Source of the DNA: Sphingomonas sp.
GTDB lineage: Bacteria > Pseudomonadota > Alphaproteobacteria > Sphingomonadales > Sphingomonadaceae
Assembly: GCF_019635515.1 (NCBI RefSeq)
Contig: NZ_JAHBZI010000001.1
Span: forward strand, 1,364,001 to 1,428,000
Reading direction: 5' to 3'
Length of the DNA: 64,000 bases
Part shown: positions 40,379 to 53,773 of the stretch, one piece after another
Numbering within the stretch: the stretch's first letter is position 1
How the letters are laid out: the number at the start of each line of letters is the position of its first letter
Position numbers and translations under genes: made by a program
The notes under the pieces: generated by a model
What the model saw: only the letters and a program-made list of their open reading frames with translations
Database searches by the model: none
Told to the model about the DNA's origin: nothing

Positions 40379-40480
40379 GTCACCCCGGCCGAAGTGCCGG
40401 GGCCTACTTATCCGCGAGCGAGCCGCAAGAGGTTCTCGCGGCTCTCCCAGTTTTGCGAGTGGGCCCCGGCACAAGGCCGG
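40379..40480. repeat. REP-like pair forming the left flank and target of the transposon
   Basis: The first half is GTCACCCCGGCCGAAGTGCC followed by GGGGCC. The second half is GGGCCCCGGC followed by ACAAGGCCGG and then, instead of the expected GGGTGAC, the transposon end. The missing GGGGTGAC end is found at 53757-53764 across the element. The sequence between the halves (CGAGCGAGCCGCAAGAGG against CTCGCGG) is itself partly palindromic. Confidence 0.75.
40466..40480. repeat. Left target-site duplication of the casposon-like element
   Basis: CCGGCACAAGGCCGG, identical to 53744-53758. The element's end begins GGGG and the repeat is itself a palindrome with G/C runs, so the duplication could be read as 11 to 19 bp. 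The 15-bp reading matches the 14-15 bp reported for casposons. Confidence 0.75.
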
Positions 40481-40517
40481 GGGGTATAATGATAGCTGCA
40501 ATTTGACGGCTTTCAGA
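40481..40517 (+). repeat. Left terminal inverted repeat
   Basis: It begins GGGGTATAATGATAGCTG and continues with TTGACGGC and TT--GACC-type positions. Aligned without gaps from GGTATA to the reverse complement of the right end it matches 27 of 37 positions, with the first 14 bases differing at one. Confidence 0.8.
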
Positions 40518-40606
40518 CCCCGCTAGGAGAGAGGAGGCGCAGCTTCGCGTGGTGGGGAGGCTAGCATTTTGAGCCGACCTCCCATGTCGTCACGACGACG
40601 ATAATC

Positions 40607-40957
40607 TCAGATAACTTGATCGAGGGCTGATAGGGTTTCCGTCAGAGATCGTCGTAAAGACATTAGGCTAGCACCGAGCGACATTTCAGGACGCTCGGCC
40701 ATGAGCATCAATGCCTTAAGCACTGCATTGGATTCTTTCGCCAGCATCACGAGGTGGACGCCGCTTGGAGCATTTGTCCCGCCAAGCCAGTTTTTGGCTG
40801 TGCGCTGACTAACGCCCGTCCATTGGGTGATGATTTTGGGTCCGTTGCGGGCTGATCCAAACTCAACCTTCAGCGCAGATGCGATCACTTGCGCGAATTC
40901 CGTCTCCGTTAGACTGGCGCGGCCAATTGGAAATGAACTTCCCTTCTTAGGTAACAT
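40607..40957 (-). CDS. Small helix-turn-helix-type protein at the left end of the element
   Basis: 116 aa with a good ribosome-binding site (GGAGAGG, four bases from ATG). Residues about 35-75 look like a helix-turn-helix (GPKIITQWTGVSQRTAKNWLGGTNAPSGVHLVMLAKESNAVL), the arrangement seen in small regulators of mobile elements. It is divergent from the serine recombinase across 74 bp that contain CCGAT-AGAAA-ATCGG, a possible operator. It probably regulates the recombinase cassette. Confidence 0.7.
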   Translation of the reverse strand: MLPKKGSSFPIGRASLTETEFAQVIASALKVEFGSARNGPKIITQWTGVSQRTAKNWLGGTNAPSGVHLVMLAKESNAVLKALMLMAERPEMSLGASLMSLRRSLTETLSALDQVI

Positions 40958-40987
40958 TTTGCCTCTCCATTGCTGTTAGGGAGGCGA

Positions 40988-41008
40988 AAGCAGCCGATAG
41001 AAAATCGG
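40988..41008. promoter_or_regulatory. Short inverted repeat in the HTH-recombinase divergent promoter region
   Basis: CCGAT-AGAAA-ATCGG lies between the two divergent starts. Candidate operator for the HTH protein; no experimental support. Confidence 0.35.
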
Positions 41009-41031
41009 TCGATCAATACCAAGGCGTATCA

Positions 41032-42603
41032 ATGGTCATAAAGTGGGGGACGGCAAAAGACGATAAGTCTGGAGAAAAGCCGCTTAAGCGCGCAGCCGAA
41101 TATGTCCGCATGTCCACGGACCATCAGAAATATTCGACTGATAATCAGACAGCGGAAATCCGAGCCTATGCCGAGAGGCGCGGGTTTGAGATTGTCCGCA
41201 CCTATGCCGACGAGGGGAAAAGTGGCCTGAGCATCGATGGGCGCGATTCCTTCCAGCGGCTTTTAACGGACATCCAGAACGGCGATGCCGACTTTGAAGC
41301 GGTCCTCGTCTATGACGTGAGCCGCTGGGGACGTTTTCAAGACCCCAACGAATCCGCGCATTACGCATGGCTTTGCAAAAGCGCAGGTATCGCCCTTCAT
41401 TTCTGCGCCGAGCAGGTCGAGAATGACGGATCGATGGGATCGTCCATCGTAACCACCGTCAAACAGGTGATGGCGGGCGAATATAGCCGTGAGCTGTCGG
41501 TTAAGGTGTTCAAGGGGCAATGCCGCCTCATCACCCTTGGCTATCGGCAAGGCGGCACTCCCGGCTACGGATTGCGCCGGATGCTTGTCGATGAGCACGG
41601 CACGCAGAAAGGTTTGCTTGATCGCGGCGAGCATAAGAGCATCGCAACGGATCGCGTCGTGCTGGTTGAAGGGCCAGACGAAGAGGTTGCCATCGTCCGC
41701 GAAATCTATCGTCAGTTCGTCGAGGACCAGCGCTCCGAACGACAGATCGCCGACTGGCTGAACGCACAAGGAATCATGTCCGACCTTGAACGTCCGTGGT
41801 CGCGCGGCACGGTCCACCAGATTCTCATCAACGAAAAATATGCCGGTCACAATGTCTGGGGGCGCACGTCCTTCAAGCTGAAAACCAAGCATGTCCGCAA
41901 CGATCCATCAGAATGGATCAGACACGATTCTGCGTTTCCCGCCATCGTGCCACAGGCGCTTTTCGATGCGGCACGGCTCATCATCGATCAGCGGTCGCAG
42001 CGCCTTTCCGATGACGAGATGCTGGCTTTGCTTGGCGAAATTTTCGCGAAGAACGGTTCACTCTCAGGCCTTATCATCGACGAGTGCGAGGACGGCCCAT
42101 CGAGCAGTGCCTACCAATCGCGCTTTGGCAGTTTGCTCCGGGCCTACTCCTTGGTCGGATACGTTCCCGACCATGATTACCGCTATCTCGAAATCAATCG
42201 CGCGCTGCGGCGGATGCACCCGTCCATCGTTAAAGACGTGATCGAAGGCGTGCATGCGGCGGGCGGCACCGCGATTCAGAATCTCGAAAACGACACGCTG
42301 CTTATCAACGAAGAGATCACCGCATCGATCGTGATTGCGCGGTGCAAACTTACGCGGGGCGGAAGCCACCGCTGGAAAATTCGGCTCGATGAAAGTCTTC
42401 GCCCCGACATCACCATCTGCGTCAGAATGGACGAGGATAATATGAACGCACACGACTATTATATTTTGCCGCGCATGACGCTCGCGGAAGGCGTCCTGCG
42501 GCTCGCCGACCACAACGGATTGTCGCTCGACGCTTTCCGCTTTGAATCGCTGGAAGGCTTCTTCACGCTCACTGAGCGCGCCCCATTCCGTAAGGCGGCA
42601 TGA
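41032..42603 (+). CDS. Large serine recombinase
   Basis: 523 aa. The resolvase domain starts RAAEYVRMSTDHQKYSTDNQ, with catalytic Ser28 after the conserved Arg, and continues with DEGKSGLSIDGRDSFQRLL, VLVYDVSRWGRF and the long helix VKQVMAGEYSRELSVKV. A recombinase domain follows (GGTPGYGLRRML, IYRQFVEDQRSERQIADWLNAQGI, WSRGTVHQILINEKYAGHNVWGR). The C-terminal 200 residues are atypical and lack the usual zinc-ribbon cysteines. Its ATGA stop overlap couples it to the first ParB-like gene. Confidence 0.92.
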   Translation: MVIKWGTAKDDKSGEKPLKRAAEYVRMSTDHQKYSTDNQTAEIRAYAERRGFEIVRTYADEGKSGLSIDGRDSFQRLLTDIQNGDADFEAVLVYDVSRWGRFQDPNESAHYAWLCKSAGIALHFCAEQVENDGSMGSSIVTTVKQVMAGEYSRELSVKVFKGQCRLITLGYRQGGTPGYGLRRMLVDEHGTQKGLLDRGEHKSIATDRVVLVEGPDEEVAIVREIYRQFVEDQRSERQIADWLNAQGIMSDLERPWSRGTVHQILINEKYAGHNVWGRTSFKLKTKHVRNDPSEWIRHDSAFPAIVPQALFDAARLIIDQRSQRLSDDEMLALLGEIFAKNGSLSGLIIDECEDGPSSSAYQSRFGSLLRAYSLVGYVPDHDYRYLEINRALRRMHPSIVKDVIEGVHAAGGTAIQNLENDTLLINEEITASIVIARCKLTRGGSHRWKIRLDESLRPDITICVRMDEDNMNAHDYYILPRMTLAEGVLRLADHNGLSLDAFRFESLEGFFTLTERAPFRKAA

Positions 42604-43499
42604 CGGTGGCGCGTCCCGCACAGCGCGTCGAGATGATCCCGATTGACCGGATCACTATCGTCAATCCGCGCCTTCGCAGCAAAAAGGTATTCAAGGGCAT
42701 CGTCGAGAATATCGCCGAGATCGGCCTCAAGCGCCCAATCACCGTGACATCGCGGCAGGGGGCGGACGGCCCGCTCTATGATCTTGTTTGTGGTCAAGGA
42801 CGACTCGAAGCCTTTCGCGAGCTGGGGCAGACCGAGGTGCCAGCCCTGATTGTGTCGGCTGACACGGAAGACTGCATGGTCGCGAGCCTCGTTGAGAATT
42901 GCGCGCGCCGTCAGCATCAGGCCGTTGACCTGCTGCAAGATATCGTCGGGATGCGTGAACGCGGCTATTCGGACAATGAGATTGCCGAGAAGACCGGACT
43001 CTCCGCGAACTACGTCTGGAGCGTCGGGAAATTACTCGCGCGAGGCGAGCGCCGGCTGGTTGCCGCCGTAGAAGCTGGATATCTTCCGATCTCCGTTGCC
43101 CTCGAAATATGTGAGGCCGACGATCAGGGTGTGCAGGCGGCACTCCACAAAGCCTATGAGGAAAAGCTTCTGCGCGGTCGCGCTCTCATTGCGGCGCGCC
43201 GGTTAGTCGAAGTGCGCAAACGCTCCGGCAAGGCCGCGAAGCTTAATCGGCTTGTTGAGAAAGGATCGGCGGCCACGCCAGAGGATTTGGTGAAAGCTTT
43301 TCAAGAGGACACCGAACGCAAGCGCATGATGATACGCAGGACCGAGGCGACCCGAAACCGCCTTGTGTTCATCGTGGAAGCATTGAGCCAGCTCTCGAAT
43401 GACGAGAGCTTTGTCGCGCTTCTCGAAGACGAAGGCTTGGCATCTATGCCGAACCGGCTCGCTGAGCGCATTCAGAATGTCAGGATCAATCTGCAATGA
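42600..43499 (+). CDS. ParB-like protein 1 (ParB/RepB N-terminal domain)
   Basis: 299 aa. The ParB N-terminal fold is clear: EMIPIDRITIVNPRLRSKKVFKGIVENIAEIGLKRPITVT, YDLVCGQGRLEAFRELGQTEVPALIV and VASLVENCARRQHQAVD. An HTH follows (GYSDNEIAEKTGLSANYVWSVGKLL). GQGRLEA stands where ParB proteins carry the CTP-binding GERRxxA-type motif. Coupled at both ends (ATGA) to the recombinase and to ParB-like 2, so the three probably work together. Confidence 0.88.
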   Translation: MTVARPAQRVEMIPIDRITIVNPRLRSKKVFKGIVENIAEIGLKRPITVTSRQGADGPLYDLVCGQGRLEAFRELGQTEVPALIVSADTEDCMVASLVENCARRQHQAVDLLQDIVGMRERGYSDNEIAEKTGLSANYVWSVGKLLARGERRLVAAVEAGYLPISVALEICEADDQGVQAALHKAYEEKLLRGRALIAARRLVEVRKRSGKAAKLNRLVEKGSAATPEDLVKAFQEDTERKRMMIRRTEATRNRLVFIVEALSQLSNDESFVALLEDEGLASMPNRLAERIQNVRINLQ

Positions 43500-44389
43500 C
43501 TGGAAGCTCACGAAACCGGAAGATCAAGCTCGCCTTCGAGACAACAAGCCTGCGCATTCCGCTTGCCGATATCGAGATGCTGCGTGCGATGACGCTCGCA
43601 ATCAAGAAGTCTGTCAAATATGCGCAGATCGAGGCGTCCATCCGAGAAGTCGGAATCATCGAGCCGCCAGTCGTTGTTAGGGTGAAAGGCGAAGAAGATC
43701 GCTATCGCTTGCTGGATGGACATATCCGCGTCGAAATTCTGAAAGAGCGCGGCGACAAGGATGTGGTGTGTCTTGTCGCCACCGATGACGAGGCGATCAC
43801 CTACAACAAGCGCATCAGCCGCATGGCTATCGTTCAGGAGCACAAGATGATCCTGAAAGCGCTTGAGAAGGGCGTATCGGAGGAGCGGCTAGCACGTGCG
43901 CTCAACGTCAATATCACCACAATCCGCGACAAGCGCCGGTTGCTCGATGGCATTTGCGATGAAGTGGCAAAGTTGTTGCAGGATCGGATGGTCCCGATCA
44001 ACACGTTTAGCGAACTGAAAAAGCTGCGGCCTATGCGACAGCTCGAAGCCGCCGAAACCATGATCGCCATGAACAAGTTTTCATGGCCTTATGCGAAATC
44101 GCTTGTGGCAGCGACACCGCAAGGCCAACTCGTAAGCGACAAGAAGAAGGCGGTGCGTGGTCTTAGCGAGGAGCAGATCGACCATATGGAGCGCGAGGCG
44201 ACAAACATCGACCGCGAGTTTCGCATGATCGAGCAGAGCTATGGGACCGATCATCTCGATCTTGTTTTGGCGACGGGATATCTGTGCCGCCTGATCGAGA
44301 ATGTGCGCGTCGTGCATCATCTTGCTCGCTTCCATCCGGAGTTGTTGGCAGAGTTCCAGCGCATCGTGCAGTTGCGAAATGCGGCTTGA
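43496..44389 (+). CDS. ParB-like protein 2 (RepB-type)
   Basis: 297 aa. ParB-like N-terminus (YAQIEASIREVGIIEPPVVVRVKGEEDRYRLLDGHIRVEILKERGDKDVVCLVA), an HTH (GVSEERLARALNVNITTIRDKRRLL) and a C-terminal region resembling RepB plasmid partition proteins. The motif is DGHIRVE, different from ParB-like 1. It starts in the stop codon of its neighbour. A 55-bp gap separates it from the convergent polymerase gene. Confidence 0.85.
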   Translation: MTGSSRNRKIKLAFETTSLRIPLADIEMLRAMTLAIKKSVKYAQIEASIREVGIIEPPVVVRVKGEEDRYRLLDGHIRVEILKERGDKDVVCLVATDDEAITYNKRISRMAIVQEHKMILKALEKGVSEERLARALNVNITTIRDKRRLLDGICDEVAKLLQDRMVPINTFSELKKLRPMRQLEAAETMIAMNKFSWPYAKSLVAATPQGQLVSDKKKAVRGLSEEQIDHMEREATNIDREFRMIEQSYGTDHLDLVLATGYLCRLIENVRVVHHLARFHPELLAEFQRIVQLRNAA

Positions 44390-44444
44390 GCATCTGAAAC
44401 CCTTCAACAACCGCACGTGCCAGACACTATCCAGCCCATTCTCA

Positions 44445-47400
44445 CTATGGCTTGTCGTCATGAACATGGCTCGAAAGATATTCGCTGGACGCTTCCCTAA
44501 TCCCCGCCTTGCGGAGCATGCGGCCAAGATTTGAGGGATCAATGCCCAACCGCCTCGCGGTCACATTTCTTCCGTCGCGTTCAATGTCTTCGCGCAACGC
44601 CTGAATCTCGGCCTGTCGCTGAAAGCTGACCCGTTCCGCGAGCGTTTGCGCGACCGGAAGGCGGGCCAAGATCGACTGCGAGAAAGCTTGATCCGATCGC
44701 GATGCCTTGCCGGAAATGAAGCGCTGCAATCTGGTGGCGTTGGTCGCGAGCGCTGTGACAGTCTTTGCCGTCCCGATCGTATCGATAAGCGCTGTCACAT
44801 TCGCAACCAACTCTCCGCGATCGATGCCACTGATGCCGTAGGTCGGCGCGGCGCTCGGCTCCAATCCGATATAAGCTTGCCGCTCCAGGTCATGCGCCTC
44901 CTTCCCGATATGGCGGGTGGCGGTCATGCGAATATGACGGCGCCGGGTAGTGCCGCGATCACCATAGTTGCCGTTCAGAAACTTGGCTTCGGGATGGATA
45001 TGATATTGCGCGAGTGCATCGGCATAGGTTGCGAGCCGGTCCTTTGACACTGGCTTGCCGGTTTCGCGATCGAATACGAGTTCCGCCGCCCGCGAGCGAT
45101 CCTTCGTGTAAGGCGAAACAGGACGACAATCCTTGATCTTGCGACGTGACGGTTTCGCGTCCGCCGCGATCATCCCTTCTCCGGTGTCGATTGCGTTCGC
45201 GATCATCGCGAGCAGGAAATTGAACGGCTTCACCCGATCGCGCGGTTTAAGGGGCTGGTTGTATCCCTTGAACCATCGCAGCAGCTCGGGCGTGGTGGCG
45301 GCATATTGCGACATGGCAGGCCCGACCATCGCGTCATGAAAATGAAGGTCGATTTCATCGGGATCGCCGCTGACCGCCGCGCTGACGATCTTCCACCACA
45401 AATCATGCTGCCAATGTTCCACCCCATCGGTCAGCACCGAAGAATGCGGGAGCGGGATGTTCGGTGCCGGTGTGCTGGCATCATAGGGGGCGAGCAAATG
45501 GCCCAATCCGTGCGCCGATATCTTGCGCATGATCGGCGTGCCGTCCTCCGCCAGATTGAAAAGGGCATAGCGCTTCGCCGATATCGCCCAGCAATAGAGC
45601 GGTGCAGGTCCGCTCTTGTCGAGCGCGGTATTCACCTTCTCGATTTGCAGGATCGAACCATCGAAATCATAGGGGTTCAATTCGGCGAACCAATCCACAA
45701 CCGATTGCACCCGCGCGGCGAATTCGTCTGGATCGAGCGGTTCAGGCCGCGCAATTGCCATGCTGTCGGTGTCGCAGAACGCCCAATCGAGGCCTTGCTT
45801 CGTCACCAGCTGTTCGGTGATTGCGAGCATCAACCGCGCAGCGCCGCAGATCAGGGTGGCGAGAAGCGGATGAAAGAACGGTCCCGGCCTCTCATTCTTG
45901 TCGATGCGGAAGGTGAACCGATCGCATGTCGATGCGTGAACAGTCGTCATCCGGGCGTCGGGCAAGTCCTCGACATTGACCTCTACGAAGATGCCGTAGC
46001 TGGTCGAGTTCGCCGCGATCTTGAGCGCGTTCTGTTCGGTATCGAGCCTGTCATATTCCGCGCCGGTCGCGGCATCGCGCCTGATCTTCGTATCATTCCG
46101 CAGCTCGATCACGCGCTTGAAGAAATCGGCTTGGTTGGGATCGACGCGATAGGCCGCGTTCCCCTGAATGTTGATCGCGCTCAAGTCGGTTTGCGCCGAA
46201 CCCGCCGAAAACGTGACGGCTTCGATCACCTTCGGAGCCTTGCCCGACAACAACTTGGAGGAAATGCACTCGGCGAGGGTCAACCATAACGGCACATCGC
46301 CCGTCAGTAAGTTGGTGCCGGTGGTCGGGGTCGCCTTCGGAGTATAGGATGCGCGAACCGGAAAAATGTCGGCATCGGGCAGGACGCGAACGATCGTCGT
46401 GAGGCGAGGCCAGAATTCAGGCGATTGAAGCGCGGCGATATCGATCCCGTCCAGCAGCGCCCGGGTTTCGTCGGTGGAATCGCGCCACGCCATGCCTTCC
46501 CCCCGCACGAAGGGCCAAAGGTTCATGAGCGTGCAAACGGTCGGATACATCGACAGAAAATCGCAATGGATCACCTGGCGTAATTCCCGCCGGATGCGGA
46601 CTTCCGCCCGACCGCCGAAATAGCTGCCCATGATGTTCGCCAGCATCTGCGGCGGAAAGTCGGGCTGAATTTTCTGCCATGACCGAATGCCCATGCCGCG
46701 CAGATAGGCTTTGCCGATACTGGCTTCGCTCAGGATTTTGTCGGGTCTCGCGCCTTCCAGCTCCAGCCGATCGAACCGTACGATCAGGTCTGCATAGCAT
46801 TGCCATGTCGCTTCCACGTCGCGCACGGCATAGCACACCATTTCGGGCGTGACGGGACCGGCGAAATCGACGGCTGCAAGCTTCTTGTCCTTCGTGCCGA
46901 GATGATCGCACAGGCTCGCAAGCGAAAATGAGCGCGACAGAAGCGCTTTCGCCAACGTCTTCACGTCGAGAAAATGCCCGGAATTGAAGGGTGTCTTGCG
47001 ACCATGCTTGCGGTCGGTGTTGCCATCGAGCTGTTTCGACGGGGCGGCGAATTTGATGAAGGCGGCACTCTGCGAAAGGTGCTTTACGCGCACGTTAGGA
47101 TGGAAGCGATCTTCGGACAGGGTGAACGAGAACCCACCGCGCATGTCGCCTCGCGCCGGTTCGTGCCGAAGCGCGATACGCGAAATGTCGAACGGCAGAT
47201 TGAAGCCGACTATCGTTCCGCGCGACCGATAGCCGAACGTGTAGAGGATATCGACTGCAAACTCGTCGCGGGTCAGCAACTCCAGGCCATGCTGATCCGC
47301 ATAGTCGGCGAGCGTCCGCAACTCGGCGGCATTCACGCCATCCGGTGCGTAGAAAATCCCCTCGCGATATCGTTCGCCATTGTGGCGGATCTGAAAGGTG

Positions 47401-47594
47401 CCGAACCGGAGCGATTGCGCCGCATCGCTGGTGGTTTCGGTATCGAAGATGACGACCCAAGGCGAAGCCGCTCTCTTCGATGCCTTGCGCCTCGGCTTCC
47501 CGGTCAGCGTTTCGTAGGTGTGGATGGTTGGTGCCGCATAGGCGCGAATCGCGACCACCAAATGGTCCGTGATCGATGGTGCTGGACTATTCAT
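44445..47594 (-). CDS. Family B DNA polymerase with 3'-5' exonuclease domain
   Basis: 1049 aa. Exonuclease motifs are IFDTETT (D51, E53), GFNLPFD (N132, D136) and CYAVRD (Y255, D259). Polymerase motifs are GSYFGGRAEV (about 323-332), HCDFLSMYPT (motif A, D345), LKIAANSTSYG (motif B, K525, Y533), FCDTDSM (motif C, D608, D610) and SAKRY (about 673-676). Catalysis looks intact. About 350 further residues include an HTH-like end (RNVTARRLGIDPSNLGRMLRKAG). Presumed to replicate the element; whether it is protein-primed, primer-independent or RNA-primed cannot be told. It overlaps the HNH gene as ATGA. Confidence 0.93.
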   Translation of the reverse strand: MNSPAPSITDHLVVAIRAYAAPTIHTYETLTGKPRRKASKRAASPWVVIFDTETTSDAAQSLRFGTFQIRHNGERYREGIFYAPDGVNAAELRTLADYADQHGLELLTRDEFAVDILYTFGYRSRGTIVGFNLPFDISRIALRHEPARGDMRGGFSFTLSEDRFHPNVRVKHLSQSAAFIKFAAPSKQLDGNTDRKHGRKTPFNSGHFLDVKTLAKALLSRSFSLASLCDHLGTKDKKLAAVDFAGPVTPEMVCYAVRDVEATWQCYADLIVRFDRLELEGARPDKILSEASIGKAYLRGMGIRSWQKIQPDFPPQMLANIMGSYFGGRAEVRIRRELRQVIHCDFLSMYPTVCTLMNLWPFVRGEGMAWRDSTDETRALLDGIDIAALQSPEFWPRLTTIVRVLPDADIFPVRASYTPKATPTTGTNLLTGDVPLWLTLAECISSKLLSGKAPKVIEAVTFSAGSAQTDLSAINIQGNAAYRVDPNQADFFKRVIELRNDTKIRRDAATGAEYDRLDTEQNALKIAANSTSYGIFVEVNVEDLPDARMTTVHASTCDRFTFRIDKNERPGPFFHPLLATLICGAARLMLAITEQLVTKQGLDWAFCDTDSMAIARPEPLDPDEFAARVQSVVDWFAELNPYDFDGSILQIEKVNTALDKSGPAPLYCWAISAKRYALFNLAEDGTPIMRKISAHGLGHLLAPYDASTPAPNIPLPHSSVLTDGVEHWQHDLWWKIVSAAVSGDPDEIDLHFHDAMVGPAMSQYAATTPELLRWFKGYNQPLKPRDRVKPFNFLLAMIANAIDTGEGMIAADAKPSRRKIKDCRPVSPYTKDRSRAAELVFDRETGKPVSKDRLATYADALAQYHIHPEAKFLNGNYGDRGTTRRRHIRMTATRHIGKEAHDLERQAYIGLEPSAAPTYGISGIDRGELVANVTALIDTIGTAKTVTALATNATRLQRFISGKASRSDQAFSQSILARLPVAQTLAERVSFQRQAEIQALREDIERDGRNVTARRLGIDPSNLGRMLRKAGIREASSEYLSSHVHDDKP

Positions 47595-47980
47595 GCCGCA
47601 CCTTCCTTCAAAACAGGCAGGCTGCGTTCGATCAGACGGATGCCATAGTCATAGAGGTATTCGATCATCTCGCGCAGCATGTCGGCAATGCCGATCAGCA
47701 GCCGTCCAGCCGCGTACAGGAAGGCGTCAGCCTCCGGGTGCATGGATCGCACGAAACTCTGTTCGAATGTCATCTTGCGATGGTCGTTCGCGCAAATCTG
47801 ACTGGTGAATGCGCGGTCCTGCTTCTGCCCGGCAGGGTGATGCAGTTCGAAGGTGCGCACATCGGTTTCGCCGCATATGCCGCAGACGGGATCGCTCACC
47901 CCCAGCTTGTCCAACCGATCCTGCAACGCGGCTTCTCGCTTCATCTCCACGACTCGCTTGCGCATGATAATCTCCGTCAT
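47591..47980 (-). CDS. HNH-like zinc-binding protein
   Basis: 129 aa. CGICGETDVRTFELHHPAGQ followed by ICANDHRKMTFEQ has the C-x-x-C, HH and second-histidine layout of HNH-type nucleases, although the second C-x-x-C pair is incomplete. The C-terminal part is a hydrophobic helix (YAAGRLLIGIADMLREMIEYLYDYGI). Bacterial and archaeal casposons commonly carry an HNH gene. Coupled by ATGA to both neighbours. Confidence 0.75.
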   Translation of the reverse strand: MTEIIMRKRVVEMKREAALQDRLDKLGVSDPVCGICGETDVRTFELHHPAGQKQDRAFTSQICANDHRKMTFEQSFVRSMHPEADAFLYAAGRLLIGIADMLREMIEYLYDYGIRLIERSLPVLKEGAA

Positions 47981-48573
47981 TTTTGGACAAGGCGATAAAT
48001 CTCGACATAACTTCCCTCCACGCTCGCCAATTCGTGAAGGATGTTCCGGTCAGTTTCGAGAGGATGGGACTTGCCCTTGGCGTCGATGATCGACGTGCCG
48101 ATGAACGGGCGGATCAGATCGTATTTGTTCGATCGCGTGTATTTCTTGACGGCGTTCATATAGGTGCCGTTGATCGACGCCTGATCGCGGTCACGCAGAA
48201 CCAAGAGCTTTTTCTGGCCTTCCGAATAGGTTTCCATCTGCGGTTTGCGCGTATCGGTGATCCGCCATCCGCGCCCTGCGCGTTCGGCATAGGCATTCTC
48301 GCGAAGAAAGCGCCGCGCCCGTTCGGTCGAGACACCAGCTTGTTTCGCGGCCTGCGTCAGATTGCCTGTTCGGTGCAATTCCTTGAGGGCAAGTTCCAAC
48401 CGCGCGTCGGACTTGGGCGACCGGCGCGATCTGACCGGGGTTTCATGATGCCGCGCATGTCCGCGCGCCTGCGAAACGCTCAGGCCACGCGCAACGCCCC
48501 TCGCTTTCCGGCGAGCATATTCGACCTTGAAATCGCGTACCCGCGCCATTCTTTCCGACTCCGCCGACGACAT
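47977..48573 (-). CDS. Helix-turn-helix protein of the polymerase operon
   Basis: 198 aa (a later ATG at 48549 is possible). The N-terminus is strongly basic (RDFKVEYARRKARGVARGLSVSQARGHARHH). An HTH follows at about residues 65-92 (LHRTGNLTQAAKQAGVSTERARRFLREN), then a WRITDTRKPQMETYSEGQKKLLVLRD domain I do not recognise. Probably binds element DNA. It overlaps the HNH gene by 4 bp. Confidence 0.75.
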   Translation of the reverse strand: MSSAESERMARVRDFKVEYARRKARGVARGLSVSQARGHARHHETPVRSRRSPKSDARLELALKELHRTGNLTQAAKQAGVSTERARRFLRENAYAERAGRGWRITDTRKPQMETYSEGQKKLLVLRDRDQASINGTYMNAVKKYTRSNKYDLIRPFIGTSIIDAKGKSHPLETDRNILHELASVEGSYVEIYRLVQK

Positions 48574-48634
48574 GCCGGGCGGAAATGACGGTGACGCAAC
48601 GCGCCCCGCGAAAGTATTGAGTCATCTGGCAAGT

Positions 48635-49306
48635 TCAGTTCTTGCCAGTATCTTCCAGTTCCTGCCGATATTGCTTGATGTGATCCCGGAGCGTTCGCGG
48701 GCTGGGCGCGCGCAAATGATACTGCTCGACGGGAAACCGGCGTTCGAATTCGCGCTTGAAATCAGGATGCAGGATTTCTGCGGAGAGCGTTCGATTGCTT
48801 TCTTTCTCATAGAGGAATTGCAGCACCTCTGCGGCATAGCGATAGGTATGGCGACGGCCACCACCCCGCTTTGCCGGTGCCGTCACCGCAATCGCAATTT
48901 CTGGATCGGGTGCGGGCAAAGGCGGATTTACTGGCGCGCCATCGGTATCCGGTTCGCGAACTCGAATGACCTTCACACCTTCATAGCGCCAGCCGGAAAT
49001 CTCGATATCGTCGCTATTCTCAATTCCGCGCGGATGATCGAATTCGAACATATATAACGGGAGCGGGACCGGGCCTTTGCTGATTTCCGGTTCGACGCAT
49101 TTGCCAAAAGCCTGAAATTCCCCGTCCCGCAATCCGGCCCATAGCTCCGCAACCATTAGAAATTGCTCAGCTTCAAATGCTTGCCGTGTCGTAGTCTCGC
49201 GAAATTTGCGCACCGCGTAAGGATCGCCAAATTCAAACCAAGCAGAGCTGAATCTGACGCCCGCGCGCCATTTCTCAATTGCACCGGATGAGTCATTTTG
49301 GGCCAT
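48635..49306 (-). CDS. Hypothetical protein, first gene of the polymerase operon
   Basis: 223 aa. The N-terminal half is mixed alpha/beta (WRAGVRFSSAWFEFGDPYAVRKFRETTTRQAFEAEQFLMVAELWAGLRDGEFQAFG). A proline-rich linker (APVNPPLPAPDPE) and a C-terminal basic helical domain follow (HTYRYAAEVLQFLYEKESNRTLSAEILHPDFKREFERRF, RTLRDHIKQYRQELE), possibly DNA-binding. No family recognised. It is divergent from cas1 across a 95-bp AT-rich gap and ends 61 bp before the HTH gene. Confidence 0.72.
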   Translation of the reverse strand: MAQNDSSGAIEKWRAGVRFSSAWFEFGDPYAVRKFRETTTRQAFEAEQFLMVAELWAGLRDGEFQAFGKCVEPEISKGPVPLPLYMFEFDHPRGIENSDDIEISGWRYEGVKVIRVREPDTDGAPVNPPLPAPDPEIAIAVTAPAKRGGGRRHTYRYAAEVLQFLYEKESNRTLSAEILHPDFKREFERRFPVEQYHLRAPSPRTLRDHIKQYRQELEDTGKN

Positions 49307-49401
49307 TGGTACAATGATATAGCGCCATCATTAACTTTGAATTTCATGTCTAAATTGCTGATTAATTGATATATTCCGGCATTGAATTGAAAGGGCTTTC
49401 A
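49307..49401. promoter_or_regulatory. Divergent AT-rich promoter region between the polymerase operon and cas1
   Basis: Much more AT-rich than its surroundings, with repeated TTAATTGATATAT-like sequence. It must hold promoters for both the polymerase operon (minus) and cas1 (plus), so it is the likely control centre of the transposition genes. Confidence 0.6.
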
Positions 49402-49403
49402 AT
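49386..49403 (+). promoter_or_regulatory. Perfect palindrome spanning the cas1 ribosome-binding site and start codon
   Basis: ATTGAAAG-GG-CTTTCAAT, 8-bp arms with a 2-bp centre. It covers the AAAGGG ribosome-binding site and the first two bases of the cas1 ATG. It could be an operator for one of the element's HTH proteins or, as RNA, a 7-bp hairpin that hides the start codon. Confidence 0.6.
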
Positions 49404-50475
49404 GCTGCAAACCGCAATTCTCGCCGACAGCGAACGCGGAGATGAATGGGCCGAGCGATCGGAATTCTGGCTGCAATGCGCCAATGCGGCAAAGCCCAAT
49501 AGGAAGCTGCGGCAGCGCAATCCCTCACCACTGATTTTGAACGGTCACGGCGTTTCGCTGCGAATTGAAAATGGCGCATTGTTGATCCGGGACGGCTTTA
49601 CCCATAATCCGCAAGGGCAAATCCAATACCGATTTTTCCCGCGCGACCTCGATTTGCCGACCCGCATCCTATTGCTCGACGGCAGCGGTACGCTGTCGTT
49701 CGATGTGCTGTCCTGGCTGTCGGAACAAGGCGTTGCACTTGCCCGCATCAAGGCGAGCGGCGAGATCGCAACGGTGGCAAGCGGCACCGGCTATTTCGCC
49801 GATCGCGAAAAGGTGATGTGGCAACAGGCCACTCGTGCAAACGAAACCGAGCGGCTGGCATTTGCAGCCGACCTGATCCGCCGAAAGGTCATTTCCAGCG
49901 TGCCGACGCTGGAGGTTCATATCCCTCCGTCCAAATCCCGCGATATGGCTTTGGAGAAGGCGAATACCGGCATCGATCGCCTGAGCCGAGAGACATTCGC
50001 CGATATCAATGCGATCTTCGCGATCGAGGGTGAATGCGCATCGGCCTATTTTCGATCGTGGCACGGCTTGCCGGTTCGCTGGAAAGGCGTCCAGCGCCGA
50101 CCCGTTCCGCAAGAGTGGAACGCCTATAACTGGCGCAGTTCGCGGGCGACCGGGGTTAAGCCGGAAAACCGCAACGCCTCGCATCCGGTCAACGCGATGC
50201 TGAACTATGCCTATGCCGTGAAGCTGGCGCAGTTGCAGATTCAGTCCATCGCGGACGGTTATGACCCGACCTTGGGGATCATGCACAACAGCAATCGAGG
50301 CAGTTCGGCTTGGGTTCTCGACATGATCGAACTGGAGCGTGCCGCCGTTGATGCCGCCATTCTACAATTTGTGCGGGATCAGACCTTCGCCGCAGCCGAT
50401 TTTGTCGTCAGAAAGGACGGGGTTTGCAGATTGTCGCCGCAGCTAGCTCGAATGGTTGCCGGTTTGATCGCCTAG
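49402..50475 (+). CDS. cas1: Stand-alone Cas1 (casposase-like integrase)
   Basis: 357 aa from the ATG at 49402, chosen for its AAAGGG ribosome-binding site; a TTG 36 bases upstream is less likely. The N-terminal beta-domain reads LILNGHGVSLRIENGALLIRDG and RILLLDGSGTLSFDVLSWLSEQGVALARI. The catalytic domain has E209 in AIEGECASAYFRSW, RNASHPVNAMLNYAYAV, H295 in GYDPTLGIMHNSNRG, and D307/E310 in WVLDMIELERAAVDAAI. The metal-binding E-H-D/E set is present. No cas2, effector or CRISPR array occurs nearby. Context predicts integration of this transposon rather than spacer acquisition. Confidence 0.92.
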   Translation: MLQTAILADSERGDEWAERSEFWLQCANAAKPNRKLRQRNPSPLILNGHGVSLRIENGALLIRDGFTHNPQGQIQYRFFPRDLDLPTRILLLDGSGTLSFDVLSWLSEQGVALARIKASGEIATVASGTGYFADREKVMWQQATRANETERLAFAADLIRRKVISSVPTLEVHIPPSKSRDMALEKANTGIDRLSRETFADINAIFAIEGECASAYFRSWHGLPVRWKGVQRRPVPQEWNAYNWRSSRATGVKPENRNASHPVNAMLNYAYAVKLAQLQIQSIADGYDPTLGIMHNSNRGSSAWVLDMIELERAAVDAAILQFVRDQTFAAADFVVRKDGVCRLSPQLARMVAGLIA

Positions 50476-50479
50476 CAAG

Positions 50480-50740
50480 CTAGCCGTTCAGAGGCTTTCG
50501 CCCGCGCTTCAGACCCTTCGGCACATTGCCGTCACCGGCTGCGAATAGATCGCCAACTGGCACAGCCAACGTGGCCGCGAGCCGATCAAGGATATCAACG
50601 GTCGGATTTTCTTCGCCGCGTTCCATCCCGCCAAGATAGGATCGATCCACGCCTGAATCGAAGGCGAGCCGTTCCTGCGAAATATCCCGCTCAACACGCA
50701 GACGGCGAAGGTTCAGACCTACAAGTTCGCGTCCGCGCAT
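50480..50740 (-). CDS. XRE-family transcriptional regulator
   Basis: 86 aa. The Cro/C1-type HTH is LVGLNLRRLRVERDISQERLAFDSGVDRSYLGGMERGEENPTVDILDRLAATLAVPVGDLF, residues 7-67. It is convergent with cas1, the two stops being 4 bp apart. It may control the cargo genes to its right or cas1. Confidence 0.9.
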   Translation of the reverse strand: MRGRELVGLNLRRLRVERDISQERLAFDSGVDRSYLGGMERGEENPTVDILDRLAATLAVPVGDLFAAGDGNVPKGLKRGRKPLNG

Positions 50741-50842
50741 GGCAGGACAGCAATCTTTTTGAAGGCCAATAAACCACTGTCTATATCCCTCTAATTAAGG
50801 AATGGGCGGTATCTTCGGAACCTTCTAACGTGAGGTTCGCGA

Positions 50843-51379
50843 ATGCGCCTGTCTGTCAAACTCGTAATTGGAGCCTCCGCTATTGGTGGGGCGGCCTTGG
50901 GTGCTTGGGATTACGCTTCACCGCTTTGGACAGTACAGGGATTGCAGTCCGCGATACTGGCCCGAGATGCGACGGCGTTAAACGGTTATGTCGATTTCGA
51001 GGCTTTGCGCACCAACCTCAAGGCACAATTCGCCGCCCGTCTAGTCGCAAACAATCTCGGAGCGCCGACCTCCACTCCAGAGTACGCAGCAACCCGGCTT
51101 CAATCCGTGAACGCGATGGTTGACGGCATGATTAGCCCGCAGGCAATTCAAGTGGCAATGGAGCGAGCGGCGCAATTGCCACCCGACGCGGGGGTCAGAA
51201 AATCTTTTGATTTCAGCTCGATCCATCGCGATGGCTTCAATCAGTTCCATGTGTCGCTCGACCCAGCCGTTACGATCGCAATACGATTCGAGCGGCGCGG
51301 CTTTGGTTGGCAGGTAATCGACGTCAAACTGCCATACGATTTGAACGCAGCATTTGGACGCGGTCAGCAACCGGAGTGA
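50843..51379 (+). CDS. DUF2939 domain protein
   Basis: 178 aa. An N-terminal hydrophobic signal or anchor (LVIGASAIGGAALGAWDYASPLWTVQGL) precedes SAILARDATALNGYVDFEALRTNLKAQF and FERRGFGWQVIDVKLP, the DUF2939 pattern. Predicted periplasmic or membrane-anchored. It is a cargo gene of the transposon; function unknown. Confidence 0.85.
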   Translation: MRLSVKLVIGASAIGGAALGAWDYASPLWTVQGLQSAILARDATALNGYVDFEALRTNLKAQFAARLVANNLGAPTSTPEYAATRLQSVNAMVDGMISPQAIQVAMERAAQLPPDAGVRKSFDFSSIHRDGFNQFHVSLDPAVTIAIRFERRGFGWQVIDVKLPYDLNAAFGRGQQPE

Positions 51380-51496
51380 TCGAAAATCTGGAGCAGTGCT
51401 AGAGACGGTCGAGGTTGTCCGTTGGCTGGCAATCCGCCGATCTTTTTTGCGCAATTTCGTTGAACCGTTTGGGAAGTTCGCGCCACCTTCATTGCG

Positions 51497-52069
51497 ATGA
51501 CGCAGAAACCCGCCTTGTCTGATGAAGCGTCCCGCGCACTTGACGCCTATCTCGTTGTCGCCGCGCAATCCGGCGACGGCGCGGCATTGAGCCAGTTAGT
51601 ACGGCGGTGGCATCGGCCGTTGGTGGCCCATGCCTGGCGACTGACGGGACGCCTCGATGCAGCGGAGGAAGTCGCGCAAACCGCATGGATTGAAATCATG
51701 CGCGGGCTTCCAAAGCTTCGCGACGAACGCGCTTTCCCGGCTTGGGCCTATCGGATCGTGACCCGGCATTCGGCTAAGCGCGTCGGTCAGTTTGTTGCTG
51801 AACGTGCCGCAATTGATTCGCTGTCAGTGGAAGCGGACGTTGCAGATAACGAAGCCAGCCCACAGGAGGTTGATGCCAGCCGCCTTCATCGCGCGATTGC
51901 GACCCTATCGCCCACGCACCGCGCGGCGGTCGCGCTTCACTACTTCGAAGGGTTGAGCGTCGCCGAAGTTGCCGTCGCGCTCGATACGCCAACCGGCACG
52001 ATCAAAACCCGCCTTATGCACGCCCGCAATCAACTGCGGTCCCAATTCAAAGGAGACGACGATGCGTAA
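51497..52069 (+). CDS. ECF-type RNA polymerase sigma factor
   Basis: 190 aa. Region 2 is LVRRWHRPLVAHAWRLTGRLDAAEEVAQTAWIEIMRGLPKLRDERAFPAWAYRIV. Region 4 is AIATLSPTHRAAVALHYFEGLSVAEVAVALDTPTGTIKTRLMHARNQLR. Regions 1.1 and 3 are missing, so it is an ECF sigma factor. It overlaps the next gene by 8 bp, the usual arrangement for a sigma factor with a membrane partner. Confidence 0.92.
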   Translation: MTQKPALSDEASRALDAYLVVAAQSGDGAALSQLVRRWHRPLVAHAWRLTGRLDAAEEVAQTAWIEIMRGLPKLRDERAFPAWAYRIVTRHSAKRVGQFVAERAAIDSLSVEADVADNEASPQEVDASRLHRAIATLSPTHRAAVALHYFEGLSVAEVAVALDTPTGTIKTRLMHARNQLRSQFKGDDDA

Positions 52070-52421
52070 TTCCGACGACAATATCGACGCGGCCATTGCC
52101 GCCGAGGAGCGCGAATTGCTGCGCCAGATCGGGCAGGAGCCGAATTATTTTCGGCAGCTTGCGACGGTTTTCAGCGGCGAGGCCGCTTGGGTAAACGTGA
52201 TTATGATGGTCGCACAAACGGCGCTGTTCATCGGCGGCCTTTACGCCGGTTGGCAGTTTTACGACGCGACGGACACGATAGCCGCCCTTCACTGGGGCCT
52301 CCCAAGTGCCGTGATGCTGGTCACTTCGTTGATGATTAAGCTGGCGCTGTGGCCGGTCGTCCAGACCAACCGCGTGCTGTTAGCTTTGAAGCGGCTCGAA
52401 GTGCTGGCTTCCACGCGGTGA
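52062..52421 (+). CDS. DUF6768-like membrane protein, sigma-factor partner
   Basis: 119 aa from the ATG at 52062, preceded by AAAGGAG. ERELLRQIGQEPNYFRQLATVFSGEAAWVNVIMMVAQTALFIGGLYAGWQFYDA and SAVMLVTSLMIKLALWPVVQTNRVLLALKRLEVL match proteins annotated DUF6768 that follow ECF sigma genes in sphingomonads. Two membrane helices. A regulatory (anti-sigma-like) role is inferred from position only. Confidence 0.72.
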   Translation: MRNSDDNIDAAIAAEERELLRQIGQEPNYFRQLATVFSGEAAWVNVIMMVAQTALFIGGLYAGWQFYDATDTIAALHWGLPSAVMLVTSLMIKLALWPVVQTNRVLLALKRLEVLASTR

Positions 52422-52430
52422 TAAATTAAG

Positions 52431-52503
52431 GCTCACGAATGTTGACGAAGCGCCGAGGCGGCCCGGTATAGACGGCTGTAGGATTTCGGAGACATTCGTG
52501 AGC
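52431..52503 (+). promoter_or_regulatory. Structured nhaA leader, candidate Li+/Na+ riboswitch
   Basis: GCTCACGAATGT (52431-52442) and ACATTCGTGAGC (52492-52503) are perfect 12-bp complements enclosing 49 bases. The 3' arm contains the GTG start codon of nhaA, and the GGAG ribosome-binding site lies just before it. The enclosed region is GC-rich with further pairing potential. nhaA leaders of known motifs (nhaA-I, nhaA-II) have been reported to sense Li+. Membership here is not proven. Confidence 0.6.
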
Positions 52504-53682
52504 ATTTTTAGAGTGATTAGACGTGGGCCGGTGTCGGCCATTCGTCACTTTCTGCATAATGAAGCGGCTGGCGGCATTCTGCTCATGGGCGCGGCGGCGC
52601 TAGCGATGATCGTTGCGAACAGCCCCCTCAGCGAATCCTACTTTCACACGCTTCATGCGAAGGTTGGTCCCCTGTCGCTGGCCCATTGGATCAACGATGG
52701 GTTGATGGCGCTGTTTTTCCTGCTGGTCGGGCTGGAGATAAAACGCGAGTTTGTTGACGGCCATCTCGCTACTTGGTCCGATCGGCTGCTGCCCTCGATC
52801 GCGGCGATAGGCGGCATGGCGCTTCCCGCGATCGTCTATCTCGGCATCGCCGGTTCGACGCCGGGCTTGGCGCGGGGTTGGGCCATTCCTGCGGCGACCG
52901 ACATTGCGTTCGCTATCGGCGTAATGGCATTGCTCGGAAAGCGCGTGCCGACTTCGCTAAAACTGTTCCTGACTACGGTTGCGATCGTTGACGACATGGG
53001 CGCTGTAGCCATCATTGCGCTGGCATACACGAGTCAAATCAGCGGCCTTGCATTGCTCGCGGCTGCGGTCGTCATGGGAGCAATGTTTATCCTGAATCGC
53101 GTTGGTGTGCGGATGCTGTGGCCCTATCTCGCCTTGGCATTTTTGCTTTGGCTCGCTGTGCTGCTTTCAGGAGTTCATGCGACGATCGCAGGCGTGTTGG
53201 CCGCGACCATGGTTCCTATTCAGCGGTCGCGTGGCGCGCCTGATGATGAATTGTCGCCCCTCCACCGGTTGGAACATGGCCTTCACCCTTGGGTCGCCTT
53301 CGGCATCATCCCCATCTTCGGCTTCGCGAATGCGGGGGTGTCGTTCGCCGGTATTGGTATTGAACATATTCTAGCGCCGCTTCCGCTAGGTGTCGCCGCA
53401 GGCTTGTTCGTCGGCAAACAGTTGGGTGTATTCGGCGCGGTATGGGCATGTGATCGCTATCATATTGCCCCCAAGCCGGGCGGTGCCACGTGGCTTCAAA
53501 TCTACGGCACGGCACTGTTATGCGGGATCGGCTTCACAATGAGCCTGTTCATTGGCGGACTGGCGTTTGCCGATCCGCTGTTAGTGGACGAGGTGAAGAT
53601 CGGTGTATTGGGTGGCTCTATCCTGTCGGCGTTGGCAGGCTTCATTGTTCTAAGATTTGCGGCCAATAGCGTGCGCAGATGA
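52498..53682 (+). CDS. nhaA: Na+/H+ antiporter NhaA
   Basis: 394 aa with a GTG start. Family landmarks are FLHNEAAGGILLMGAAALAMIVANSPLSESY, HWINDGLMALFFLLVGLEIKREF, GWAIPAATDIAFAIGVMALLGKRVP and VAIVDDMGAVAIIALAY, which holds the paired transport aspartates, then GVHATIAGVLAATMVP and GFANAGV. It exchanges cytoplasmic Na+ or Li+ for protons. It is the last gene of the transposon (58 bp from the terminal repeat) and so is probably cargo giving salt or lithium tolerance. Confidence 0.95.
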   Translation: MSIFRVIRRGPVSAIRHFLHNEAAGGILLMGAAALAMIVANSPLSESYFHTLHAKVGPLSLAHWINDGLMALFFLLVGLEIKREFVDGHLATWSDRLLPSIAAIGGMALPAIVYLGIAGSTPGLARGWAIPAATDIAFAIGVMALLGKRVPTSLKLFLTTVAIVDDMGAVAIIALAYTSQISGLALLAAAVVMGAMFILNRVGVRMLWPYLALAFLLWLAVLLSGVHATIAGVLAATMVPIQRSRGAPDDELSPLHRLEHGLHPWVAFGIIPIFGFANAGVSFAGIGIEHILAPLPLGVAAGLFVGKQLGVFGAVWACDRYHIAPKPGGATWLQIYGTALLCGIGFTMSLFIGGLAFADPLLVDEVKIGVLGGSILSALAGFIVLRFAANSVRR

Positions 53683-53706
53683 GCAAAACGATCGGCTGAG
53701 GCGAGG

Positions 53707-53743
53707 TCAAAACGGCGTCAACACCCGGCTATCACTATACCCC
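53707..53743 (-). repeat. Right terminal inverted repeat
   Basis: Read on the minus strand it begins GGGGTATAGTGATAGCCG and continues with TTGACGCC and a downstream TTTTGACC, matching the left end at conserved blocks GGTATA, TGATAGC, TTGACG and GACC. Confidence 0.8.
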
Positions 53744-53758
53744 CCGGCACAAGGCCGG
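53744..53758. repeat. Right target-site duplication
   Basis: CCGGCACAAGGCCGG, the second copy of 40466-40480. It is followed by GGGTGAC, the missing end of the interrupted REP. Confidence 0.75.
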
Positions 53759-53773
53759 GGTGACTATCAGGGG

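Follow-up and report, generated by a model that had tools for sequence, protein, structure and literature searches.

A complete casposon at the centre of a REP palindrome in Sphingomonas sp., and the palindromic targets of its relatives

Casposons, transposons that encode a Cas1 homologue, are held to be the source of the CRISPR Cas1 integrase; those studied in vitro have targets at tRNA genes or at the gene for elongation factor 2 (EF-2) and need a flanking stretch on one side of the target. Here we describe an element in a 64,000-nucleotide stretch of the Sphingomonas sp. genome (contig NZ_JAHBZI010000001.1, positions 1,364,001 to 1,428,000; hereafter the window, numbered from its first letter). 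The element is a complete 13.3-kb casposon, an already known kind of transposon, and lies exactly at the centre of a repetitive extragenic palindrome (REP), where it was probably placed by its own Cas1. The kind of element being known, the new part is the target rule, insertion at a palindromic centre: in the open literature, with subscription papers and supplements outside the scope, we found no report of palindrome-centred casposon targets, and a search for casposons in Sphingomonas, or for casposons together with extragenic palindromes, likewise found no literature. An earlier note on this DNA had mentioned the REP in passing, and it is this palindromic-repeat target that is the unusual part.

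Compared by description only, casposon family 3 (HenMar-C1, StrAlb-C1, NitAL212-C1, AceAut-C1) shares with the window element the B-family polymerase, terminal inverted repeats (TIRs) and a target duplication of about 15 bp, and the window's stand-alone Cas1 without added domains is like those in the descriptions of HenMar-C1 and StrAlb-C1 (passages of Krupovic et al. 2014, PMC4046053). For the HNH and helix-turn-helix (HTH) core genes, which family 3 has in common with family 2, the window has likely counterparts that are rightly placed and carry HNH-like and HTH-like motifs, but have no significant Pfam match. Target duplications in the passages of that description range from 1 to 27 bp, with a median of 15, so that the 15 bp of the window element and the 14-17 bp of its relatives (15 elements with an exact duplication) fall within it. 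The targets named there are intergenic, tRNA-end and EF-2 sites, whereas the target here is the centre of a palindrome, and the same passages report no serine or tyrosine recombinase, whereas the window element carries a serine recombinase.

The closest solved structure to the window Cas1 is 6opm, the casposase of MetMaz-C1 from Methanosarcina mazei, in which the active-site H, D and E have the same spacing. According to passages of PMC6977970, the M. mazei enzyme binds a 14-bp target as a tetramer with pseudo two-fold symmetry and uses the native target and a symmetrised one equally well in vitro, whereas here the symmetric sites are the natural ones. In passages describing MetMaz-C1, the element resembles the window casposon in its end (GGGATATAG, against GGGGTATAG here) and in its 14-bp duplication; it differs in that this duplication (ATAATCTTAATGCG) is non-palindromic and that the reaction in vitro requires up to 30 bp of tRNA-Leu beside the site. 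The A. boonei enzyme recognises the palindromic T-loop part of tRNA-Pro (PMC9939771), which, going by passages on the target of this enzyme, probably lies beside the duplication and not within it. Insertion at REP palindromes is also described for ISPa11, in passages of PMC11187229, and for IS621 and ISPpu10, in titles cited there, but REP-targeting IS110/IS1111 transposases are of the DEDD type and RNA-guided, and are unrelated to the casposon in enzyme and mechanism. Adaptation by CRISPR Cas1-Cas2 resembles the window casposon in that Cas1 there inserts into a short repeat, often a palindromic one, which is duplicated in the process. It differs in that the element has no Cas2 family match among its 14 scanned proteins, that a simple scan found no array-like repeat run in the window, that the insert is a whole transposon, and that the duplicated piece measures 14-17 bp.

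The window casposon and its insertion site

The borders of the element, the repeats at its ends and the palindromes at its junctions are the following.

40481..53743, plus strand: whole casposon, 13,263 bp, delimited by TIRs, 15-bp duplication and a border base set by relatives
40481..40521, plus strand: left TIR, GGGGTATAATGATAGC, then TTGACGGC/GACC block
53703..53743, minus strand: right TIR, GGGGTATAGTGATAGC, then TTGACGCC/GACC
40466..40480, no strand: left copy of the target duplication, CCGGCACAAGGCCGG, a 5-bp stem with a 5-nt loop
53744..53758, no strand: right copy of the target duplication, CCGGCACAAGGCCGG
40464..40482, no strand: REP palindrome CCCCGGCACAAGGCCGGGG, whole at the left junction, its final GG being the element start
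53742..53760, no strand: REP palindrome, whole at the right junction, its initial CC being the element end
40383..40402, no strand: second REP-like palindrome, CCCCGGCCGAAGTGCCGGGG, 81 bp from the first, read from the sequence

The two ends agree at 15/16 positions, at 27/37 counted from GGTATA, as had been claimed earlier, and at 30/41 overall, an identity reached by none of 200,000 random pairs drawn from the element. In the 3.54-Mb genome, matches with fewer than two mismatches to the casposon ends are these two ends only; with up to three mismatches there are 12, against 34 for the reversed control, and an end-like match at 656694 of G000 with two mismatches, considered as a further end, was rejected as within chance level. 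The casposon has a GC content of 57.5%, against 65.3% for the remaining window.

The 15-mer duplication CCGGCACAAGGCCGG is nested in the 19-bp palindrome on both flanks. The palindrome and the element share the same start and end letters, so that the exact border is ambiguous in the window copy itself. In two related elements with clearer flanks, G168 (target CTCT-CCCGCCTTCGCGGG-AGAG) and G1021 (a non-palindromic 15-bp duplication), the rule of longest duplication puts the first base of the element at the G of GGGGTA; this start sets the window borders at 40481 and 53743 and the length of the duplication at 15 bp, upholding the direct repeat first noticed at both borders.

The target is a short palindrome with many copies and inverted pairs, the features by which REPs are defined. 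The pattern CCCCGG-N7-CCGGGG occurs at 34 exact places in the genome, both junctions counted, which is about 0.02% of the genome, and the reversed control gave none. The second palindrome, 81 bp away, indicates that the target had been one half of a REP pair; elsewhere in the genome there are six REP pairs spaced 78-79 bp. The insertion site is intergenic, between a GH5-like and a zf-TFIIB-like gene. These two genes stand side by side, with no element between them, in 10 of 11 same-genus loci fetched from among the best of 120 same-genus genomes with a flank match (the window's own genome being one of the 120), and the remaining locus, L052, has no GH5 gene. The check for an empty site proposed in the earlier note thus succeeded for the flanking genes but not for the exact empty REP. 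Its suggestion of recent movement was not borne out, there being one copy only and no precise empty REP site found.

The core genes, together with one for an unknown protein, lie in the middle of the element.

49402..50475, plus strand: Cas1 casposase, 357 aa, PF01867 at E = 1.5e-28; start 49402 favoured over a TTG at 49366
44445..47594, minus strand: family B DNA polymerase (PolB), 1049 aa, with exonuclease and polymerase motifs and a helical C-terminal part
47591..47980, minus strand: HNH-like protein with a CxxC and HH pattern; PHROG HNH at just E = 0.059, no significant Pfam match
47977..48573, minus strand: HTH-like core protein, named by motif and place; no significant Pfam match
48635..49306, minus strand: unknown protein with a 32% identical gene in G481; no Pfam match, PHROG E = 0.041
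50480..50740, minus strand: Cro/C1-type HTH regulator, PF01381 at 1.3e-13, with homologues in G162, G481, G1110, G1270 and G1276

PF01867 matches the genome at a single place, in two pieces. Residues E209, H295, D307 and E310 of Cas1, identified as catalytic from the alignment to other Cas1 proteins, are invariant in 31/31 aligned relatives, in line with the stand-alone Cas1 with its catalytic residues reported before. The structural model has a predicted local distance difference test score (pLDDT) of 84, and both the fold comparison and the Cas1 tree place the protein on the side of the casposases, not of CRISPR Cas1. The tree sampled 8 of the 120 archaeal matches listed, 5 of the 120 bacterial matches listed and 7 of 23 plasmid matches, without the frameshifted G162 and without the loci drawn from the order of G1021, G1021 itself excepted.

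The full-length PolB named in the earlier note has the motifs of family B, and the exonuclease and polymerase motif residues are invariant in 8/8 aligned members. On its own the window protein matches Pfam weakly (PF00136, E = 0.025, under the cut-off) and a PHROG phage DNA polymerase at 6.3e-7, but its homologues match better: at E<=1, PF00136 was found in 6/8 members and PF03175 in 5/8, the best at 6.2e-9. The PolB model has a mean pLDDT of 56, and the top Foldseek hits are B-family polymerases, with low TM-scores (the best hit being polymerase alpha, 1.6e-6, TM-score 0.25 by query length). The HNH-like and HTH proteins of that note stand by motif and by place in the relatives, and the Cro/C1-type regulator stands by its Pfam match, whereas for the HNH-like and HTH-like core proteins significant Pfam matches are lacking.

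Related casposons and their targets

At E<=1e-3 we found 1906 proteins related to the window Cas1; the best 120 of the 1906 are 63-87% identical, and the remainder may include other Cas1. Genomes were also drawn from the family (5/298 with a match), order (4/396), class (4/385), a second draw of the family (6/397, no new element) and the order of G1021 (8/190); the draws overlap, each of the first four includes the window's own genome, and the order of G791 holds just two genomes. Together the draws yielded 20 cas1 loci belonging to this group, spread over 18 genomes, so that the statement that bacterial casposons are few no longer holds. Both ends could be delimited for 16 elements: the window, L002, G162, G168, G481, G307, G791, G1021, G1278, G1142a, G1142b, G1276, G1198a, G1198b, G1270 and G1110. 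The 15 relatives are in genomes of the same class, including Tsuneonella flava (L002) of the same family, and left outside the 16 as undelimited are G090 (L023), G154 (contig broken), G808 (a cas1 fragment) and G1223 (one end only). The record G521, taken to be identical with L002, was not counted separately. Two of the genomes, G1142 and G1198, carry two different casposons each. A scan of genome contigs with the Cas1 protein alone found Tsuneonella flava only, and no relatives of Cas1 were found in viral contigs.

The 15 elements whose duplication is exact are 9.8-16.6 kb long. By tblastn, each of the 16 delimited elements matches PolB, the HTH-like gene and cas1, always in one order; the HTH-like homologue lies between PolB and cas1 in 15/15 other elements, and the HNH-like homologue adjoins PolB in 10/15. 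Among the 30 ends of 15 elements (G1110 excluded), the first four bases are G in 30/30, as the end patterns demanded, and base 9 is G in 29/30. The same core genes thus recur inside the same end type at other places, which bears out the casposon reading. Within the searches made, three observations contrary to it did not turn up: close relatives with the same genes but without these borders, a Cas1 placed among CRISPR adaptation proteins, and the inverted repeats at many sites of the genome without the genes.

Of the 15 elements whose duplication is exact, the window among them, 13 have a reconstructed empty site that forms a hairpin of 8 pairs or more, with its centre no more than 2 nt from that of the duplication. 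By the same measure such hairpins occupy 0.79% of 272,782 flank positions and 0.92% of the 17,444 positions outside long open reading frames (161 positions). G481 is likewise inserted in a REP but was left uncounted in this test because an expanded G run alters its left junction; with it, hairpin targets number 14/16 delimited elements, the window included, in three orders of the class. The targets are REPs in the window, L002 (with one G-T pair) and G162. They are other hairpins in G168 (AGCCCTCTCCCGC-CTTC-GCGGGAGAGGGCT), in G307, where the hairpin is terminator-like (AAAAGCCCCTGC-ACTA-GCGGGGGCTTTT), and in G1198b (CCCCTCTCCCG-AATC-CGGGAGAGGGG). In genome G1198 the two casposons occupy two copies of one palindrome, of which three more copies are unoccupied in the fetched stretches. 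The association of casposon targets with palindromes is strong.

Judged by the GTCA beside one arm, the REP is oriented one way relative to cas1 in the window and L002 and the other way in G162 and G481, as a symmetric reading of the target would predict. Since the GGGG at the tip of the element pairs with the C-run in the outer arm of the palindrome, the window, L002 and G162 keep a complete 19-bp REP at each junction; elsewhere the junction hairpins are mostly shorter than the original. At the left junction the stem has 7-10 pairs, against a mean of 4.7-8.4 with random element ends, and is the longer in 13/13 hairpin elements. Two side observations concern junctions. At about 7942 in G481 (reverse complement of L031+L032), about 12 consecutive G stand at the left junction, against 6 in the other REP-inserted elements, and the single end of G1223 lies at a CCTGCCTGCGCAGG hairpin.

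How the target may be chosen

We propose that Cas1 likely picks small palindromes, much as CRISPR Cas1 inserts at repeats that are often palindromic. Cas1 would attach one end of the element to each strand, at points 15 bp apart that flank the hairpin core. By analogy with the M. mazei enzyme, it would act as a two-fold symmetric tetramer gripping a 14-bp target; a palindrome of 14-15 bp would then offer identical contacts to both halves of the tetramer and serve as a symmetric target in nature, perhaps with no need of a leader on one side, the symmetry being read by Cas1 itself. The GGGG/CCCC ends of the element can pair with the C-run of the palindrome arm, giving a hairpin at each junction, which may protect the host repeat or permit a second insertion. 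After excision the element would be copied by PolB, probably primed by the host, and the HNH-like and HTH-like proteins may assist excision or targeting.

Several observations weigh against this proposal. G1021 is a clear exception, its 15-bp duplication GGCTTCAAGAAACAA being non-palindromic, and no tRNA was found as its target in the 16.5 kb fetched on the left side; G1110 is a weak case, whose hairpin has only 6 pairs and lies 4 nt from the centre, and whose ends differ slightly. With the GGGG end fixed, the duplication measures 14 bp in 3 elements, 15 in 6, 16 in 2 and 17 in 4, a spread due in part to G/C runs that blur the border. The right-junction stems have 5-12 pairs, and in 6/13 elements only 5-6, little beyond the duplication itself, the random control covering the left side only. 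The branch leading to the bacterial Cas1 clade is long (2.96). An identical REP was found at the empty locus in none of the 11 fetched same-genus loci, L048 having a partial REP and the intergenic sequence differing, so that the site before insertion is reconstructed, not observed.

Insertion might instead be nearly random, with hairpins favoured only because intergenic repeats and terminators tolerate it harmlessly. REPs and terminators are intergenic as a rule, and so is the window target; but the background outside long open reading frames given above stands against 13/15 insertions, and the hairpin is not just close to the duplication but at its centre, which makes this explanation improbable. 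A palindrome beside an inverted repeat also lengthens the repeat on paper, here to 60-nt arms, as if the hairpin were part of the element, long inverted repeats carrying the REP along, and not a target in the host. That is very unlikely, given that the hairpin varies between elements yet agrees at both sides of each, and that the REP pattern is present at 32 further places in the window's genome and in other hosts too. We regard as practically negligible a remnant of CRISPR adaptation or a defence island: the protein is a Cas1 homologue, and databases label it CRISPR-associated, but there is no second Cas1 match in the genome, neither a Cas2 match among the 14 scanned proteins of the element nor an array-like run in the window was found, the Cas1 tree and fold point to the casposase side, and transposon ends are present.

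It is scarcely credible that the large serine recombinase, a 523-aa protein with both domains inside the element, is the mobility enzyme and Cas1 a passenger. A homologue of the recombinase is found in 3/16 elements, whereas 13 have the same end type without it; the order recombinase-RepB-RepB occurs on two plasmids, where the stretch shown bears no annotation of casposon genes; and to our knowledge serine recombinases leave no 15-bp duplication. A cas1 gene, on the other hand, is present in 16/16 delimited elements (frameshifted in G162, with one in-frame stop in G1270), and Cas1 is the sole integration enzyme common to them, in a comparison that covered cas1 and the serine recombinase. The HTH-like or HNH-like protein rather than Cas1 could be the chooser of the target, Cas1 merely joining the ends. 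All 16 delimited elements have the HTH-like gene, and such a helper role is proposed in passages of Krupovic et al. 2014 (PMC4046053); but according to passages of PMC6614799 and PMC6977970, archaeal casposases locate their targets unaided in vitro, and tblastn detected no HNH-like gene in 5/16 elements (G1021, G1278, G1198a, G1198b, G1110), three of which have clear hairpin targets. We consider this explanation unlikely, though it deserves to be kept in mind.

Placement by Cas1 is the reading that we consider likely for the window element. More tentatively, and with considerable doubt, the group may be a bacterial casposase clade with natural palindromic targets, in which Cas1 alone, without Cas2 or a leader, reads the two-fold symmetry of a hairpin and duplicates it with each insertion. 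If so, repeated insertion would produce rows of hairpin, insert and hairpin, a living model of a Cas1 transposase becoming the integrase of clustered palindromic repeats. A bacterial casposon group in three orders that already targets and copies short palindromes bears on the question of how Cas1 came to act on palindromic repeats, for which concrete enzymes, ends and target sites are now available. A rule of insertion at short C/G-rich hairpins could also explain how these elements spread without harm to the host.

Cargo genes and other observations

The remaining genes of the element are predicted as follows.

40607..40957, minus strand: small predicted regulator, PHROG 23106 (unknown function) at E = 4e-9, phage repressor family at E = 0.03
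41032..42603, plus strand: large serine recombinase, 523 aa, PF00239 and PF07508 at E of about 1e-24; cargo
42600..43499, plus strand: RepB/ParB-like protein 1, PF07506 and PF02195; cargo
43496..44389, plus strand: RepB/ParB-like protein 2, PF07506 at 4e-41; cargo
50843..51379, plus strand: DUF2939 protein, PF11159 at 1e-16; cargo
51497..52069, plus strand: extracytoplasmic function (ECF)-type sigma factor, PF08281 and PF04542; cargo
52062..52421, plus strand: DUF6768 protein behind the sigma factor, PF20556 at 7.6e-33, scanned from 52068; cargo
52498..53682, plus strand: NhaA-type Na+/H+ antiporter, PF06965 at 1.1e-139; cargo

The serine recombinase-RepB-RepB module (41032-44389) had been overlooked earlier. 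Among the 16 delimited elements, homologues of the recombinase are found in the window, G168 and G481, on differing sides and in differing orientations; in G168 a gene 42% identical to the small regulator likewise adjoins it. The recombinase matches 62 plasmid records, with relatives on alphaproteobacterial plasmids, and the recombinase-RepB-RepB order is found on conjugative plasmids of Sphingobium and Aminobacter, the stretch shown having no annotated casposon genes. The varied places and orientations of these three occurrences, together with the plasmid copies, lead us to read the module as borrowed cargo; the module, the sigma factor and NhaA are probably passengers.

Cas1 has matches in 23 plasmid records. 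Annotation names 22 of these CRISPR-associated Cas1, at 23-29% identity; the remaining one carries no annotation and is of the casposon type. The latter is a 47%-identical cas1 stretch in two pieces on the Bradyrhizobium plasmid pBsp2S1b (L082, 15001-15352), amid insertion sequences, and is possibly a casposon remnant on a conjugative plasmid. In G090 (L023, 10894-10939) two casposon ends point towards each other with about 16 bp between them (CTATACCCC-CCCGCCGACAATTAGC-GGGGTATAG), as a tandem insertion or a circle junction; the two ends of this contig do not overlap. G162 (L021 and L022 joined) has three identical copies of about 957 bp at 8905, 18960 and 22319, two inside the casposon and one just outside, apparently of an insertion sequence; together with its frameshifted cas1, these copies indicate a decaying element. 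Beyond the right end of the casposon in G168 (L018, 1918-5274) lie a large ligase-like gene and a Ku-like gene, both named from their translations alone.

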